Shown here: positions 13,822-20,646 of the stretch, piece by piece
Layout of the letters: each line of letters begins with the position of its first letter
Position numbering within the stretch: position 1 is the stretch's first letter
Assembly (NCBI RefSeq): GCF_007748195.1
Contig: NZ_CP037920.1
Coordinates: forward strand, 2,853,501 to 2,917,500
DNA length: 64,000 nucleotides
Direction of reading: 5' to 3'
From: Gimesia aquarii
GTDB taxonomy: Bacteria; Planctomycetota; Planctomycetia; Planctomycetales; Planctomycetaceae
The notes under the pieces: generated by a model
Told to the model about the DNA's origin: nothing
Database searches by the model: none
Seen by the model: the letters and a program-made list of their open reading frames with translations, nothing else
Program-made: the position numbers and the translations under genes

Positions 13822-13830
13822 ATACAACAA

Positions 13831-13845
13831 GGCTAATAATTAGCC
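13831..13845 (+). promoter_or_regulatory. Palindromic operator, likely MarR autoregulatory site
   Basis: GGCTAATAATTAGCC is a perfect palindrome with 7-bp arms around one central A. A third GGCTAAT follows as a direct repeat at 13847-13853. It lies just past the predicted -10 and about 45 bp before the MarR start codon, the usual place for a MarR dimer to block transcription. Confidence 0.75.
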
Positions 13846-13888
13846 TGGCTAATGAATGAGGGTTTCTAATCTACCGGAGGAGAAACTG

Positions 13889-14344
13889 ATGCTGCAATAC
13901 GACTTTGAGGAAAGTATCGGGTATTGGATTACAATTACTTCGCATTTTTATCAAGAGGCATTAAATCAGGAATTGATACCTTATGGAATTACATTCCGTC
14001 AGTTTCAGGTGATTGGTTGGCTCGTTTATGAAGGCTCGCTTTCCCAAGTCGAATTGGCCGAACGCATGATGATCGAGCCACCAACGCTGGTTAGAATCCT
14101 GGATCGTATGGAGCGGGATTGCTGGATCAAACGTGAAAATGATCCCGATGATCGCCGCCGTAAAGTGGTGAAAGTTCTTCCTGAGGCAAAACCCGTTTGG
14201 TCGCAGATGGTGGCCTGTTTAAAGCGGCTCAGAAAAAAGGCGACTCAAGGTATGACACCGGAACAGGTTGAAATCTTGAAGTCGCTATTAATGCAGGTGC
14301 AGGAAAATCTCGGAGTGACGACTTCCGAGTATGAGACTGCATAA
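13889..14344 (+). CDS. MarR family transcriptional regulator
   Basis: A 151-residue winged-helix regulator. The ATG at 13889 is chosen because GGAGGAG (13876-13882) lies 6 nt ahead; an in-frame ATG at 13856 would place that site inside the gene. The helix-turn-helix (LSQVELAERMMIEPPTLVR, about residues 53-71) is followed by the DRMERDCWIKRE wing approach and the PDDRRRKVV wing that is diagnostic for MarR. Terminal helices give the dimer. It likely represses the efflux genes that follow and itself, through the palindrome upstream. The inducing ligand is unknown. The RND adaptor starts about 60 bp after its stop. Confidence 0.92.
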   Translation: MLQYDFEESIGYWITITSHFYQEALNQELIPYGITFRQFQVIGWLVYEGSLSQVELAERMMIEPPTLVRILDRMERDCWIKRENDPDDRRRKVVKVLPEAKPVWSQMVACLKRLRKKATQGMTPEQVEILKSLLMQVQENLGVTTSEYETA

Positions 14345-14404
14345 ATAAGAAGAAATCAAATTTATAAACGATAGATAATACTTAATATAATATTGAGGGG
14401 ATTT

Positions 14405-15700
14405 ATGAGATTAGCAACCAGCCTCGTTGCCTTTTTTTTGTTATGTTTTTTATTTTCTGAACAACTGCTAGCCCAACGTGGTCCCGCATCTGTGGCCGTT
14501 GCTAAAATTGTGGAACAGAAAATTGCATCAGGACAAACCTTTGTTGGAACCGTGCAGCCGATTAAGAGAAGTCTCATCGGAAGTGCCGTCGGTGGACGTG
14601 TCGCCGAGTTTCCTGTGAATGAGGGAGACTATGTGCGCGCCAAACAACCTTTGGCTCAACTCTTGATTAACACTATCAGTTTAGAAGTAGATGCTGAAAA
14701 AGCGGAATTGGAACTTCGCAAACATGAACTGACTGAGTTAGAAAATGGTTCCCGACCAGATGAAATAAAAAGAGCCAAAGCGCTCATGATGGCTGCCAAG
14801 GCTGGTAGCGAGTATCAGCAGAAACGACGTAAACGTCTGGAATCTCTTTATTCTAGAAAAGCAGTGAATGATGATGATATTCAACAGGTTGTCTCAGAGT
14901 CAATTCGTGCTGAGCAATTATATCAGGAAGCGACGGCAGCTTATGAACTCGCAGTGAAAGGGCCTCGAAAAGAGAAAATTGCTCAGGCGCGATCTCGAGT
15001 TGCCATACAACAGGCCTTGGTTGATAAACTTGAAAGCCAGGTCGTAAAGCATACGATTATTTCTCCGTTTAATGGATACGTTGTTGCCGAACATACGGAA
15101 GTCGGTCAATGGGTTAACTCGGGTGAGCTTGTTGCCGAAGTGATTGCATTAGATGAAGTGGATGTCAGTGTTCAAGTACTGGAGAACCATGTGCCGCATG
15201 TTCGATTGGGAATGGATGTCCGTGTAGAAGTTCCCGCTATTCCAGAAGAAGTGTTTATTGGTAAGGTAGCCATGGTCATCCCGCAGGCAGATGTCCGATC
15301 TCGTACGTTTCCAGTTAAGGTTCGGATCAAAAATACAATTACTAAGAATGGGCCGATCCTCAAATCGGGAATGTTAGCCCGCGCTGTGCTGCCTACAGGG
15401 GCGGCTCAAACTGCCTTACTGGTTTCCAAGGATGCTTTGGTTTTAGGAGGTCCTCGTCCCATGATTTTTGTCGTCGAGCCTAATAAAGAAAATCAAAAAC
15501 TGGGTAAAGCACGTGCTGTTCCCGTCCAAGTTGGTGTAGCTCAAGGTCGATTAATTCAAGTGAAGGGTGACTTGAAACGTGGGGCGTTTGTTGTCATACG
15601 TGGTAATGAACGCTTAAGACCAGAGCAGAATGTAGTAATCGCTGAAGTCTTATCGCCCGATGCGGAACCAAAAGCAAAAGCCATGAAATCGGATGGTTAA
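14405..15700 (+). CDS. RND efflux periplasmic adaptor (membrane fusion protein)
   Basis: A 431-residue adaptor starting at the ATG at 14405, 4 nt after GAGGGG; an upstream TTG is unlikely. A signal peptide ends near LLAQR. The mature protein has the split biotinyl-lipoyl-like domain (GSAVGGRVAEFPVNEGDYV near residue 60, and HTIISPFNGYVVAEHTEVG near 218), an alpha-helical hairpin with coiled-coil character in between (about residues 95-205), then a beta-barrel domain and a membrane-proximal domain. It has no lipobox, so it is probably anchored by its partner. It connects the inner-membrane pump at 15713 with an outer-membrane channel. No TolC-like gene is nearby, so the channel must be shared. 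Confidence 0.92.
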   Translation: MRLATSLVAFFLLCFLFSEQLLAQRGPASVAVAKIVEQKIASGQTFVGTVQPIKRSLIGSAVGGRVAEFPVNEGDYVRAKQPLAQLLINTISLEVDAEKAELELRKHELTELENGSRPDEIKRAKALMMAAKAGSEYQQKRRKRLESLYSRKAVNDDDIQQVVSESIRAEQLYQEATAAYELAVKGPRKEKIAQARSRVAIQQALVDKLESQVVKHTIISPFNGYVVAEHTEVGQWVNSGELVAEVIALDEVDVSVQVLENHVPHVRLGMDVRVEVPAIPEEVFIGKVAMVIPQADVRSRTFPVKVRIKNTITKNGPILKSGMLARAVLPTGAAQTALLVSKDALVLGGPRPMIFVVEPNKENQKLGKARAVPVQVGVAQGRLIQVKGDLKRGAFVVIRGNERLRPEQNVVIAEVLSPDAEPKAKAMKSDG

Positions 15701-15712
15701 AGAGGATCTTCA

Positions 15713-18700
15713 ATGAACTTGATTCACGCCATAGTACACAATCCGGTAAAGGTGACTGTAGGGGTTTTGATGACCGTTTTGTTCGGTCTTGTTGCATTGA
15801 TTCGAATGCCAATGCAATTGACTCCTGAAGTACAAAGACCCACGATTACTGTCGAAACACGTTGGCCGGGTGCCAGCCCTCAGGAAGTCGAGCGTGAGAT
15901 TGTTCTGGAACAGGAAGAGCAACTCAAAAGTGTTGAGGGGATTACAAAACTAAGTTCAGAGAGTGCGGACTCTAAAGGATCTATAACGCTTGAGTTTCTG
16001 GTCGGCACGAACATGGATGAGGCATTACTAAAAGTAAACTCCCGTTTGCAGCAGGTACCAGAATATCCTGAAGATGCAGACCAACCCATTATCAGCACTT
16101 CGAACGCTGCAGATCGTCCGATTGCCTGGTTTATTCTCAGTAGTCGTTTACCGTCAGTTGAAAAATTAGCTGAGTTTGAGACTTCACATCCTGAGATTAA
16201 GGAAGAACTGGAAGTCATTCGTACGACTCCTAATCCAGGCTTAGCTATGTTGCGATTGAGACTATTAGCCGAAGAACATCCTGAAGTCAGAGGGGGACTA
16301 TTGCCCTCTCAAGATCTGGAAGTCACAAAATTACGTCGCTTTGCAGAAGATGAAATCGAAGCTCGATTTGAACGTGTCTCGGGAGTTTCTCAGTCTAATG
16401 TATTAGGTGGTCTGGAAGATGAACTTCAAGTAGTAGTGGATTCAGAACAACTGGCAGCACGGCAATTAACGATAGCAGATATTCGTGCTGTGTTACGAGG
16501 ACAAAATGCAGATACATCAGCTGGAGATTTTTGGGAGGGAAAACGACGGTGGGTTGTTCGGACGATTGGCCAGTTTCGTGATGTAGAAGAAGTTGAAAAT
16601 CAGTTATTGGCGATTCGCAATGGTGCTCCCGTTTATGTCAGAGATGTTGCAGCAGTTCGCTTGGGATATAAAAAACCCGCTGGTCTTGTGCGGCGTTTTG
16701 GTGAATCCAGTATCGCAATTAACTGCGTCCGCGAAACCGGAGCCAATGTTCTGGATATCATGGATGGTTTGCGAGCAGCTACGAAAGACCTCGATGAAAA
16801 CATTCTAAAGCCACGCGGATTACAGCTCGTTCAAGTTTATGATGAAACGGATTATATTTATTCCTCTATCGATTTGGTACAGAATAACATTTTCATCGGC
16901 GGGGCGTTAACTATGATTGTGTTGATGTCTTTTTTGCATTTGGGTGTCCGGACTCTACTCTTCGTGCCATTTATTCTTCTCACAGCTGTCGCTGCGATGT
17001 TCATCTCTCCCTGGTTCTTTGTGATCAGTTTAGCATTGATTGTGGGAGCGGGGTTCTGGTTTGCCCGTGGGGCTTTGGTGGTTGGGTTGGCAATTCCAAC
17101 AAGTATCATTGGCACATTTCTGATTCTGGGGGCATTGGGACGTTCTTTGAACGTCATCAGTCTAGCTGGGTTGGCATTTGCTGTTGGGATGTTGGTTGAT
17201 AATGCCGTGGTAGTTTTGGAAAATATTTTCCGCAGATATTCTTTGGGAGAATCCCCATTCCGGGCTGCTATTAAAGGGACTCAAGAAGTTTGGGGCGCAG
17301 TTCTTGCATCAACACTCACAACCATTGCAGTTTTTCTTCCAGTTGTCTTCATACAAGAGGAAGCAGGCCAATTATTTAGAGATATTGCGCTCGCAATCAG
17401 TGCTGCCGTCGGTCTTTCATTATTAGTTTCAATGACGTTGATTTCCACTGCGTCCGCTCGCTTGCTCAAGAAGAGGGAAGGCCAAGAAATTGAAGACGAA
17501 CACATTTCGCATCGGGATGAGATACCGTCTGAAAAACCGAATCCAAAAGGTAAATTACATAGAGTCCTGATTGGACCAATTGAAGCCGGAGGAGCTGCGT
17601 TTGTAAGAATGATTGTGGGAGTGAATCACTGGATTCAGCGTGGTTTTATTCGTCGGTTACTTGTTGTTGGCTTACTTGTTGGTGCTGCAGTAGGTATCAG
17701 TTGGCAGTTGTGGCCTAAAGTTGAGTATCTGCCAACAGGGAATCGAAATTTAATTTTCGCCATTTTGCTGCCACCTCCCGGATATAACCTCAACCAACTG
17801 ATGGAGCTGGGAGAGACCGTTGAAAACGATTTGCGACCTTACTGGGATATCGATCCTACCAGCGAGGAAGCCAAAAAACTGGATTATCCTGTGATTGGGG
17901 ATTTCTTTTTTGTTGCACGAGGGCGTCAGGTCTTTATGGGGATTCGTGCTTATGATTCACAGCGCGTGGGAGAGTTGATTCCTCTAGTCCAAAAGGCAGG
18001 TATGAAATTGCCGGGGACATTCGCAGTCGCGAAACAATCCAGTCTGTTTGAAAGAGGACTCACGGGAGGTCGTACTATTGAAGTTGAGATTATTGGCCCT
18101 GATTTAAAAAAACTGGTGGGTATGGGGGGGCAGATTCTGGGACAAGTAAAACATATCATGCCGGCTGCTCAAGTACGTCCTATTCCCAGCCTTGATCTTT
18201 CGAGTCCAGAAATTCATATCCAACCCAAACTGGTTCAAGCAGCCGAAATGGGAGTCAGTAGTGCTGATTTGGGATATACGGCGAATGCCTTGATTGATGG
18301 TGCTTTTGCTGGAGATTATTACCTCGGAGGAGATAAAATTGATCTGACGATTGTGGGTAGATCGAAACACGTCCAGAATACGCAAGATGTCAAAGCCTTA
18401 TCGGTGGCGACTCCCATGGGATCACTCGTGCCATTAGAAGCCTTAGCAAGCGTGGAAATTACAAGTGGTCCGGAACAAATCAATCACCGAGAGCGTCAGC
18501 GTGCGATTACCATTGAAGTGTCACCACCAGAAGAGATGGCACTCGAAGATGCCATGGGGCAGATTCAGTCGAAAATTGTACAGCCATTGCGAGAGAACGG
18601 ACAATTGGTAGGGGGGTATCGCATTATCTTGTCAGGAACCGCTGACAAATTACGGGATACATGGGCTGCACTGGAGTTCAATGTGATGCTTGCTTTATTG

Positions 18701-19273
18701 ATTACTTACCTTTTGATGGCAGCGTTGTTTGAATCATGGCTCTATCCATTAGTGATTATTTTCAGTGTCCCACTAGGTGCTGTCGGTGGAATCGTAGGAC
18801 TGAGTATTCTTAATTTGTTTACACTCCAGACTCTGGATGTACTCACAATGTTGGGCTTTGTGATTTTAATTGGAACCGTGGTAAATAACCCGATATTAAT
18901 TATTCACCAATCTTTAAATCACATCAAAGAAGACGACATGTCACCCCGTGAAGCAATTCTGGAAAGTATTCGTACCCGAATCAGGCCTATTTTTATGACG
19001 ACAACAACAACCGTATTGGGGTTGTTACCACTGGTTTTATTTCCTGGTTCAGGAAGTGAATTGTATCGTGGTTTGGGAAGTGTTGTTTTGGGAGGGCTGA
19101 TTGTTTCGTCGCTATTTACACTAGTACTCGTTCCGACGTTGTTTAGCTTGACAATGGATGCTAAGAAGTGGGGCGTGAATCTCTTGCGGCCAAGTTTAGT
19201 GAAACAGACGAAATCAAATCATTCTCTGTCAGAAGAAGTGGAATTATCTACTCAGGAAAATGCGACGATTTAA
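15713..19273 (+). CDS. RND family efflux permease (HAE1/AcrB-like) with insertions
   Basis: A 1186-residue RND pump starting 12 bp after the adaptor, with AGAGGA overlapping the adaptor stop. The N-terminus (helix, then periplasmic RPTITVETRWPGASPQEVE) and the motif GMLVDNAVVVLENIFRR (about 492-508) are typical. The proton-relay pair of AcrB (Asp407-Asp408) is Asp-Asn here, as in several HAE subgroups. It is about 140 residues longer than AcrB. Two insertions are visible: a charged segment of about 55 residues in the first periplasmic loop (146-201), and about 40 hydrophobic residues between the second and third membrane helices (414-453). A cytoplasmic linker near 585-620 is also long. It exports unknown compounds by proton antiport. 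Confidence 0.94.
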   Translation: MNLIHAIVHNPVKVTVGVLMTVLFGLVALIRMPMQLTPEVQRPTITVETRWPGASPQEVEREIVLEQEEQLKSVEGITKLSSESADSKGSITLEFLVGTNMDEALLKVNSRLQQVPEYPEDADQPIISTSNAADRPIAWFILSSRLPSVEKLAEFETSHPEIKEELEVIRTTPNPGLAMLRLRLLAEEHPEVRGGLLPSQDLEVTKLRRFAEDEIEARFERVSGVSQSNVLGGLEDELQVVVDSEQLAARQLTIADIRAVLRGQNADTSAGDFWEGKRRWVVRTIGQFRDVEEVENQLLAIRNGAPVYVRDVAAVRLGYKKPAGLVRRFGESSIAINCVRETGANVLDIMDGLRAATKDLDENILKPRGLQLVQVYDETDYIYSSIDLVQNNIFIGGALTMIVLMSFLHLGVRTLLFVPFILLTAVAAMFISPWFFVISLALIVGAGFWFARGALVVGLAIPTSIIGTFLILGALGRSLNVISLAGLAFAVGMLVDNAVVVLENIFRRYSLGESPFRAAIKGTQEVWGAVLASTLTTIAVFLPVVFIQEEAGQLFRDIALAISAAVGLSLLVSMTLISTASARLLKKREGQEIEDEHISHRDEIPSEKPNPKGKLHRVLIGPIEAGGAAFVRMIVGVNHWIQRGFIRRLLVVGLLVGAAVGISWQLWPKVEYLPTGNRNLIFAILLPPPGYNLNQLMELGETVENDLRPYWDIDPTSEEAKKLDYPVIGDFFFVARGRQVFMGIRAYDSQRVGELIPLVQKAGMKLPGTFAVAKQSSLFERGLTGGRTIEVEIIGPDLKKLVGMGGQILGQVKHIMPAAQVRPIPSLDLSSPEIHIQPKLVQAAEMGVSSADLGYTANALIDGAFAGDYYLGGDKIDLTIVGRSKHVQNTQDVKALSVATPMGSLVPLEALASVEITSGPEQINHRERQRAITIEVSPPEEMALEDAMGQIQSKIVQPLRENGQLVGGYRIILSGTADKLRDTWAALEFNVMLALLITYLLMAALFESWLYPLVIIFSVPLGAVGGIVGLSILNLFTLQTLDVLTMLGFVILIGTVVNNPILIIHQSLNHIKEDDMSPREAILESIRTRIRPIFMTTTTTVLGLLPLVLFPGSGSELYRGLGSVVLGGLIVSSLFTLVLVPTLFSLTMDAKKWGVNLLRPSLVKQTKSNHSLSEEVELSTQENATI

Positions 19274-19351: not shown

Positions 19352-20044
19352 TTAAGAATATTCGGTATCAATCCCAAGGCGATATTTTAGTTGATCCAAC
19401 TCTTCAATCGATTCATCACTGGATGAATGAACGTGTTCTGCTTCAGTGATAAATTTCAAATCTGAGATGTGGGGGATACCATACTCATCCAAGATATTTT
19501 CGAATTGCTCGATTCCCTGCCCGTACATAATAAGAAGTTTATGCTCATCAAATTGAACTTCGAGTGGAATGAGTGGGTTTAGAACTGCAATACCAGCACA
19601 GCCATCATTCAACAGCAAATCTTCATAATCGTAGAGTGTGCTTTTGAGAACAGGTAAATCCATGTGTTCGCGATACAGGTCCTGGTGTTGATTGCTTGAA
19701 CCCTCGTGACTCGTTTCCAGCACGACATCAACCTCGGTACCAAGTGGGTCGAGCAGGTCAATAAACAGGTCAAATAAGATTTCTTTTGAAGCGGACGCCA
19801 TCAGAACAGGAATCTTGATGCCAGTTTCTTTGTCCGTATAAACATCATGTCGGTAACCAGCTTGAGGCACGACTTCTAGATCATAAGAAGGGCGAATGGC
19901 TTCTGTCAGTAAGAAGTTGCCATACTTTGCGATATTCAAGTGCGTTTCTAATTGATCTTCTGAAAGACTTTCAAAACTACTGCGCGCTTTTCCTGCAGAG
20001 TTATCCCGATAGGTCGTCTTTAAGAATTTTTTTAAGAATCCCAT
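19352..20044 (-). CDS. Conserved planctomycete protein of unknown function
   Basis: A 230-residue cytoplasmic-type protein. The ATG at 20042-20044 is preferred over an upstream in-frame alternative start, and it follows a purine-rich GGGGGGAAGA. After a basic amphipathic N-terminus (MGFLKKFLKTTYRD), the body is acidic with segments such as ETHLNIAKYGNFLL, VLMASASKEILFDLFIDLLDPLG and VDVVLETSHEG. The pattern of alternating beta and alpha with a VLETSH turn is reminiscent of an alpha/beta fold, but I recognise no family. No signal peptide or membrane segment is visible. It stands alone on its strand. Confidence 0.65.
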   Translation of the reverse strand: MGFLKKFLKTTYRDNSAGKARSSFESLSEDQLETHLNIAKYGNFLLTEAIRPSYDLEVVPQAGYRHDVYTDKETGIKIPVLMASASKEILFDLFIDLLDPLGTEVDVVLETSHEGSSNQHQDLYREHMDLPVLKSTLYDYEDLLLNDGCAGIAVLNPLIPLEVQFDEHKLLIMYGQGIEQFENILDEYGIPHISDLKFITEAEHVHSSSDESIEELDQLKYRLGIDTEYS

Positions 20045-20646
20045 AATAAATCTTCCCCCCCTCACGACAGACAAAAATCATGTTGCCACTTGGGCTTGTA
20101 ACACCGTATTTACTTAACTTTTTGGATTGGTATTTAGAATTGGCAGTTTGTTCTTAGTTGTTGTGACTGGAACGAACTGGAATCAAAAAACTCTAGCACG
20201 CAAAATGAGGAGAGGTCTCAAGTAGTCTCGATGTTGCGTTCTTTTTTGGCGAGTTTGAGCCAAAAGAGCCGGAAGGATGAGATGAGGTAAGAGTTCCAGA
20301 CAGATAAAAGGTCCGGTTGTACGGTCTAGGTAATCTTGAAACCGTAATCTATGGGGTAATAACAAATAGAATCGTTGTTTTCTATGCCATTGTTTAGACC
20401 GGGAGGGTAAATTGAGATTTCGGAACTAATTAATGTGTTTATTTATATAAACATTTATTTTTTAACAGTTTAGGAGACACTATCAGAGAGCGGTGCAACC
20501 AAAGCTTGTATTTATTTATAGCTGCTATCTAACAAATAGACACATTGCAGTAAACTATTATCATCACTAGAATTACTGCCTTGTACCAGTATTCAATCGT
20601 TCTAGATCATCTCTTTCTGATGTTATATCCAACCCCGGATGGTTTA
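20045..20646. other. 600-bp non-coding region between divergent genes
   Basis: No convincing gene is present. A 60-codon minus-strand frame at 20183-20365 has no start context and an odd Leu/Arg-rich composition. The stretch 20430-20580 is very AT-rich and is the likely promoter region for the DUF481 gene. Confidence 0.5.

Follow-up and report, generated by a model that had tools for sequence, protein, structure and literature searches.

An RND permease encoded by Gimesia aquarii carried a 40-residue hairpin, predicted to lie in the membrane, between TM2 and TM3, at the joint between the helix known in AcrB as the coupling helix and the helix repeat R1. The hairpin was conserved and supported by structure modelling, and is a real feature of the protein. 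The window (the whole stretch of DNA analysed here) comprised 64,000 nucleotides of contig NZ_CP037920.1 (positions 2,853,501 to 2,917,500, forward strand), from a genome of 7,397,129 bases in one contig with 99.86% completeness; coordinates of all features within it are given in Table 1. A sequence-only reading of the window had pointed to extra hydrophobic residues between TM2 and TM3, and this was borne out: they were absent from AcrB and from nine aligned paralogues of the same genome, and formed two helices in the AF2 model.

Table 1. Features of the Gimesia aquarii window, in window positions
Feature	Position	Strand	Basis
Palindrome AGGCTAATAATTAGCCT before marR, likely operator	13830..13846		sequence and recurrence in relatives
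MarR-family regulator gene, first in cluster	13856..14344	+	Pfam
Periplasmic adaptor gene (RND_mfp, HlyD_D23), 12 bases upstream of permease	14393..15700	+	Pfam/NCBIfam profiles
RND permease gene, 1186 aa, AcrB fold, 12 + 2 predicted membrane helices	15713..19273	+	ORF, Pfam, AF2, fold comparison
Periplasmic helical insert, residues 147-199 (53 aa), between AcrB D146 and G147	16151..16309	+	alignment, AF2
TM2, residues 378-408 (AcrB coupling helix)	16844..16936	+	AF2, AcrB alignment; role from PMC4359379
Predicted membrane hairpin, 40 residues, 412-451, between AcrB F362 and R363	16946..17065	+	alignment, conservation, AF2
Hairpin helix a, residues 412-430, P419 conserved	16946..17002	+	AF2, conservation
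Hairpin turn, residues 431-434 (I-S-P-W)	17003..17014	+	AF2; S432 in 66, P433 in 56, W434 in 63 of 72 thinned rows
Hairpin helix b, residues 435-449	17015..17059	+	AF2, conservation; G447 in 72/72, W449 in 62/72 thinned rows
TM3, residues 452-474, first R1 helix after TM2	17066..17134	+	AF2, AcrB alignment
TM4 D496-N497 = AcrB D407-D408, second Asp replaced by Asn	17198..17203	+	AcrB alignment
TM10 N1058 = AcrB K940, replaced by Asn	18884..18886	+	AcrB alignment

The permease and its gene cluster

The permease ORF was a single frame without internal stop, and its product matched the ACR_tran profile (PF00873) in three stretches, with 619.9 bits against a curated cut-off of 28 in a Pfam profile search. 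Scores stayed below the cut-offs of three NCBIfam subfamily profiles (RND_permease_1, 462.8 vs 1250; RND_permease_2, 542.4 vs 1250; 2A0602, 375.9 vs 940.35 bits). The AF2 model (best of five, built on a 64-row alignment; mean pLDDT 82.9, pTM 0.75) superposed on BpeB (7wls_A) with Z 47.1 and an rmsd of 3.1 for 985 aligned residues between residues 3 and 1155, and on AcrB 8p1i_C with Z 46.8, AcrB chains generally scoring about 46; the top Foldseek match was 4u8y_B, with a TM-score of 0.88 by target length. The AcrB-family PDB alignments shown were interrupted at each insert (query 147/201 and 409/454). The genome as a whole gave 18 PF00873 matches, several of which were fragments of one gene.

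The cluster was ordered marR, adaptor, permease, and the adaptor scored 158.7 bits against an RND_mfp cut-off of 94.9, as expected of a tripartite-exporter adaptor; no outer-membrane factor gene lay within the cluster. By these profile matches the product is the permease of a MarR-linked, tripartite-type RND exporter, with a predicted transport role. It resembles the HAE-1 pumps AcrB, MexB, BpeB and MdtB in fold, TM1-TM12 plan, porter regions, the TM4 Asp (D407, here D496) and an adjoining adaptor gene, but differs from AcrB-type pumps by two added helices at F362|R363, a 53-residue helical insert at 146|147 and Asn at the D408 and K940 equivalents. Among loci with at least 1500 bases upstream (some genomes counted twice), a homologue of the window adaptor was encoded upstream on the same strand at 69 of 77 with the hairpin and 38 of 52 without it; for MarR homologues the counts were 17 and 13. 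A correlation of the hairpin with adaptor type, a check suggested in the sequence-only reading, was not supported at the level of adaptor family.

Between positions 13830 and 13853, AGGCTAATAATTAGCCT was overlapped by ATTAGCCTGGCTAAT, over a promoter-like -10 element just before marR. The form GGCTAAT-N-ATTAGCC recurred upstream of marR in Gimesia relatives (loci L109, L110 and L137), and GCTAA together with TTAGC was found in 10 of 32 distinct upstream stretches. The palindrome AGGCTAATAATTAGCCT is likely a marR operator. Downstream of the permease, a 240-aa ORF on the minus strand (19352-20074) had no Pfam match.

Position, predicted structure and conservation of the hairpin

Insert limits were set by alignment with AcrB of E. 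coli MG1655. The length of about 40 residues given by the sequence-only reading was retained, whereas its limits of 414-453 had to be moved by two residues, to 412-451. The standard RND plan of 12 helices, with a short TM2-TM3 loop, did not describe the permease: the AF2 model placed helices at 412-430 and 435-449, with pLDDT of 85-90 in blocks spanning 411-450. Modelled likewise, the hairpin-less relative L186 (mean pLDDT 83.2) passed from TM2 (376-406) directly into TM3 (409-432), and in hairpin-less rows the two are linked by a short R-S turn. A count of 14 helices is by itself nothing new for the superfamily, for which a review (PMC8277102) gives 12, sometimes 13 or 14.

The alignment held 182 rows, 114 of which had both the hairpin and the periplasmic insert; the hairpin was exactly 40 residues long in all 114 of these clade members sampled. 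Any D, E, K or R within 415-449 occurred in only 12 of the 114, while the flanks were basic (R or K at 412-414 in 112, R452 in all 114). Such basic flanks are what the positive-inside rule predicts for a hairpin that enters from the cytoplasm, and the nearly charge-free interior with these flanks fits two hydrophobic helices with an uncharged turn that would enter the membrane from, and return to, the cytoplasmic side. The remaining helices would then keep their sidedness. The suggestion that the insertion may change the topology is not supported as regards the sidedness of the other helices, since an even number of helices was added and the fold matched AcrB and BpeB at Z of about 47.

After thinning at 85% identity (72 rows), P419 was kept in 69 rows, and residues of the turn and of helix b were conserved at the frequencies given in Table 1. 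Mean pairwise identity was 0.46 in helix a, 0.62 in the turn and 0.49 in helix b, compared to 0.33 in TM7, 0.18 in the 585-613 linker and approximately 0.70-0.86 in TM4-TM6 and TM8-TM12. When pairs were matched for overall identity (50-60%; 2125 with the hairpin, 866 without), identity in TM3 was 0.68 with the hairpin and 0.43 without it, and in TM2 0.67 and 0.52, though this greater conservation could be due in part to the make-up of the two sets, only the hairpin set being a single clade. For the remaining ten helices the two sets differed by -0.04 to +0.11. By this comparison, the extra constraint falls on just TM2 and TM3, the helices flanking the hairpin.

The periplasmic insert

A 55-residue charged insertion had also been proposed, at 146-201. 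An insert was present, but it measured 53 residues (147-199), at a site that we take, from AcrB boundaries, to be in PN2; AF2 modelled it as helices 149-158, 160-171, 175-188 and 190-195. The further claim that both inserts are foreign to standard RND pumps held for AcrB, which has neither, but the charged insert was shared by 56 hairpin-less planctomycete relatives. It is thus older than the hairpin, and the alignment indicates that the two are separate features of different ages. The insert was about doubled in length in L155, L068/L159 and L077, as if a helix-turn unit had been repeated. The paralogue L005 of the same genome (C1:6972157-6975501) had an unrelated-looking insert of about 78 residues at the same periplasmic point, which suggests that insertions have been taken up repeatedly there too.

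Distribution and evolutionary history

A strong permease homologue was found in 93 of 120 genomes of the host's own GTDB family. The hairpin profile (A1) had matches in 69 of 170 genomes at the level of the order, in 85 of 297 at that of the class and in 26 of 392 at that of the phylum, the class-level matches falling in families f1, f2, f102, f106 and f117. Carriers in which the hairpin was checked included Gimesia, Alienimonas, Bythopirellula, Aeoliella, Rhodopirellula, Stieleria, Roseimaritima, Mariniblastus and Fuerstiella. Among the best 80 of 491 relatives from a contig scan, 70 had the hairpin and 10 did not; all were labelled as Planctomycetota groups except L179 ('bacterium'), which had no hairpin, and as the scan reached other phyla through two patterns in the hairpin flanks it is no proof of absence elsewhere. 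The hairpin region had no tblastn match to plasmids at 1e-3.

With insert columns excluded, hairpin rows made up one side of a branch in a 99-row tree (SH-aLRT 94) and in a 134-row tree (SH-aLRT 98), the latter built after removal of rows more than 90% identical and of seven paralogues from the host genome. A 74-row tree placed L165 beside the hairpin-less L258 (SH-aLRT 93) and had seven hairpin changes overall. In a 38-row tree, free search left the window-type hairpin group unjoined, and the tree constrained to join it scored better by 15.1 log units (p-AU 0.69). The window-type hairpin most likely had a single origin, as one clade of Planctomycetia with at least five families, nested among hairpin-less relatives. 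Planctomycete relatives like L186 (66% identical) share the periplasmic insert, the TM4 and TM10 residues (56/56) and a homologous adaptor, but lack the 40-residue hairpin, TM2 running straight into TM3. This hairpin-less group was counted as 56, since an initial 57 included the host paralogue L005; of the other host paralogues, L009 and L012 had no blastp match at 1e-20 and were left unaligned, and L011 and L013-L019 were excluded because they were fragments or duplicates of other loci, or weak matches. Hairpin-less paralogues coexist with hairpin-bearing pumps in the same genomes (for example, G721), indicating that such pumps work without the hairpin.

A second occurrence came from family f67, in another class of Planctomycetota, where three genomes gave weak matches to the hairpin profile. 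The order concerned was then covered by a search of 151 genomes and an alignment of 30 loci, eight of which (L267-L269 and L271-L275) had hydrophobic inserts of 43-48 residues at the same TM2-TM3 point; 21 had none, and L270 was a truncated ninth hairpin locus. These inserts resemble that of the window permease in hydrophobicity and position, but their lengths and motif are different, the periplasmic insert is missing and they are patchily distributed among hairpin-less kin. A single origin of all hairpins was rejected (p-AU 2.3e-47), as was a single clade of six f67 hairpin rows (p-AU 0.0004). Hairpins at this point therefore arose, or vanished, more than once, and counts alone cannot separate gain from loss.

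Proton-relay residues

The proton relay of AcrB/MexB-type pumps consists of D407 and D408 in TM4 and K940 in TM10. In the permease this relay was incomplete, with D496 kept and N497 and N1058 substituted. Asn at the D408 and K940 places was shared by almost all of the planctomycete relatives examined; at the K940 place it stood in 113 of the 114 rows with the hairpin, in all 56 planctomycete rows without it, in 32 of 32 f67 rows (three of them repeats, L247-L249 being L267, L272 and L274) and in five of nine host paralogues. Judged by this distribution, the trait predates the hairpin and is not part of the hairpin finding. The permease may use another coupling ion or relay than AcrB does.

Possible roles of the hairpin

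Two papers (PMC4359379, PMC8277102) describe TM2 of AcrB as a coupling helix that flanks R1 (TM1 and TM3-TM6), links the mobile PN2/PC1 porter unit to R1 and, in the L-to-T step, shifts against R1 in the direction of the cytoplasm. In the sequence, the hairpin falls exactly at this TM2-R1 joint; its two short helices would dip into the membrane between TM2 and TM3, with both ends of the hairpin on the cytoplasmic side. We postulate that, packed on TM2 and TM3, it might serve as a membrane-embedded spacer or brace that governs, or limits, the sliding of TM2 against R1, and that this brace, or a reshaped membrane surface nearby, may tune coupling, membrane substrate entry or substrate choice. 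We give a role as a membrane element at the TM2-R1 hinge, tuning coupling or lipid contact, a little under an even chance of being correct. Bracing of TM2 movement would be in keeping with the extra constraint seen in TM2 and TM3. Against a brace, helices of 19 and 15 residues are short for a full membrane crossing; moreover, helices a and b are less conserved than most of the transmembrane core, which would equally suit lipid-facing helices with no mechanical role.

That lower conservation also bears on a different reading, in which the hairpin would be a built-in partner or lipid element, an in-chain counterpart of AcrZ whose lipid-facing helices or docking surface bias substrates. According to PMC7267776, AcrZ attaches to AcrB in its membrane part and, together with cardiolipin, alters the drug pocket, and the hairpin helices vary as peripheral ones do while the turn and W449 are conserved. 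However, no candidate hairpin-partner gene lay within the marR-adaptor-permease cluster and the adaptor family was unchanged by the hairpin, and we regard this role as rather unlikely. Added pieces in the helix connections of RND pumps do have a precedent: according to PMC8406276, an 11-residue piece between TM9 and TM10 of MtrD (Neisseria gonorrhoeae) is essential for full function and acts at the membrane, but it lies at another site, is shorter and is not two helices.

Alternatively, the hairpin might be a product of constructive neutral evolution, an insertion of chance origin to which neighbouring residues adapted, which became hard to lose and left transport unaltered. Such an origin would accommodate the many hairpin-less paralogues and sister groups and a hairpin less conserved than the core, but sits poorly with an invariant length, a conserved turn and Gly, and the recurrence of hydrophobic inserts at this site within another class; it appears unlikely. 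Derivation as a tandem copy of TM3-TM4 is highly improbable and was not supported: a weak likeness by eye came with an hhalign score of 10.5, the top of nine segments tested, but with a probability of 0.67%, and 2 of 40 column-shuffled controls equalled the score, whereas the known RND repeat, TM3-4 against TM9-10, reached 45% when compared in this way. That the hairpin is an artefact of assembly or frame, or an ordinary long TM3, has virtually no probability left and is refuted by the intact frame, by profile matches in 85 of 297 genomes of the class, by the presence of the hairpin in close homologues, and by AF2 models in which the two helices stand apart from TM3 and are missing from the L186 control.

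Implications for RND pumps of Planctomycetota

The hairpin was unreported in the literature searched, which comprised open-licence papers. Hairpins are most likely recurrent in Planctomycetota, and the 12-helix core of HAE-type pumps tolerates added helices. More speculatively, and with considerable doubt, the TM2-R1 joint may be an evolutionary hot spot at which planctomycete RND pumps gained a hairpin independently, once in Planctomycetia and at least twice in f67, giving 14-helix exporters with an added element that tunes TM2-driven coupling, on a background in which D408 and K940 were already replaced. Models of AcrB assign to TM2 the coupling between the proton site and the binding of substrate in the porter domain. 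Removal of the hairpin would be a clean 40-residue cut that gives back the short turn of its relatives, and the hairpin clade, beside close hairpin-less relatives, offers a natural experiment on TM2 coupling.
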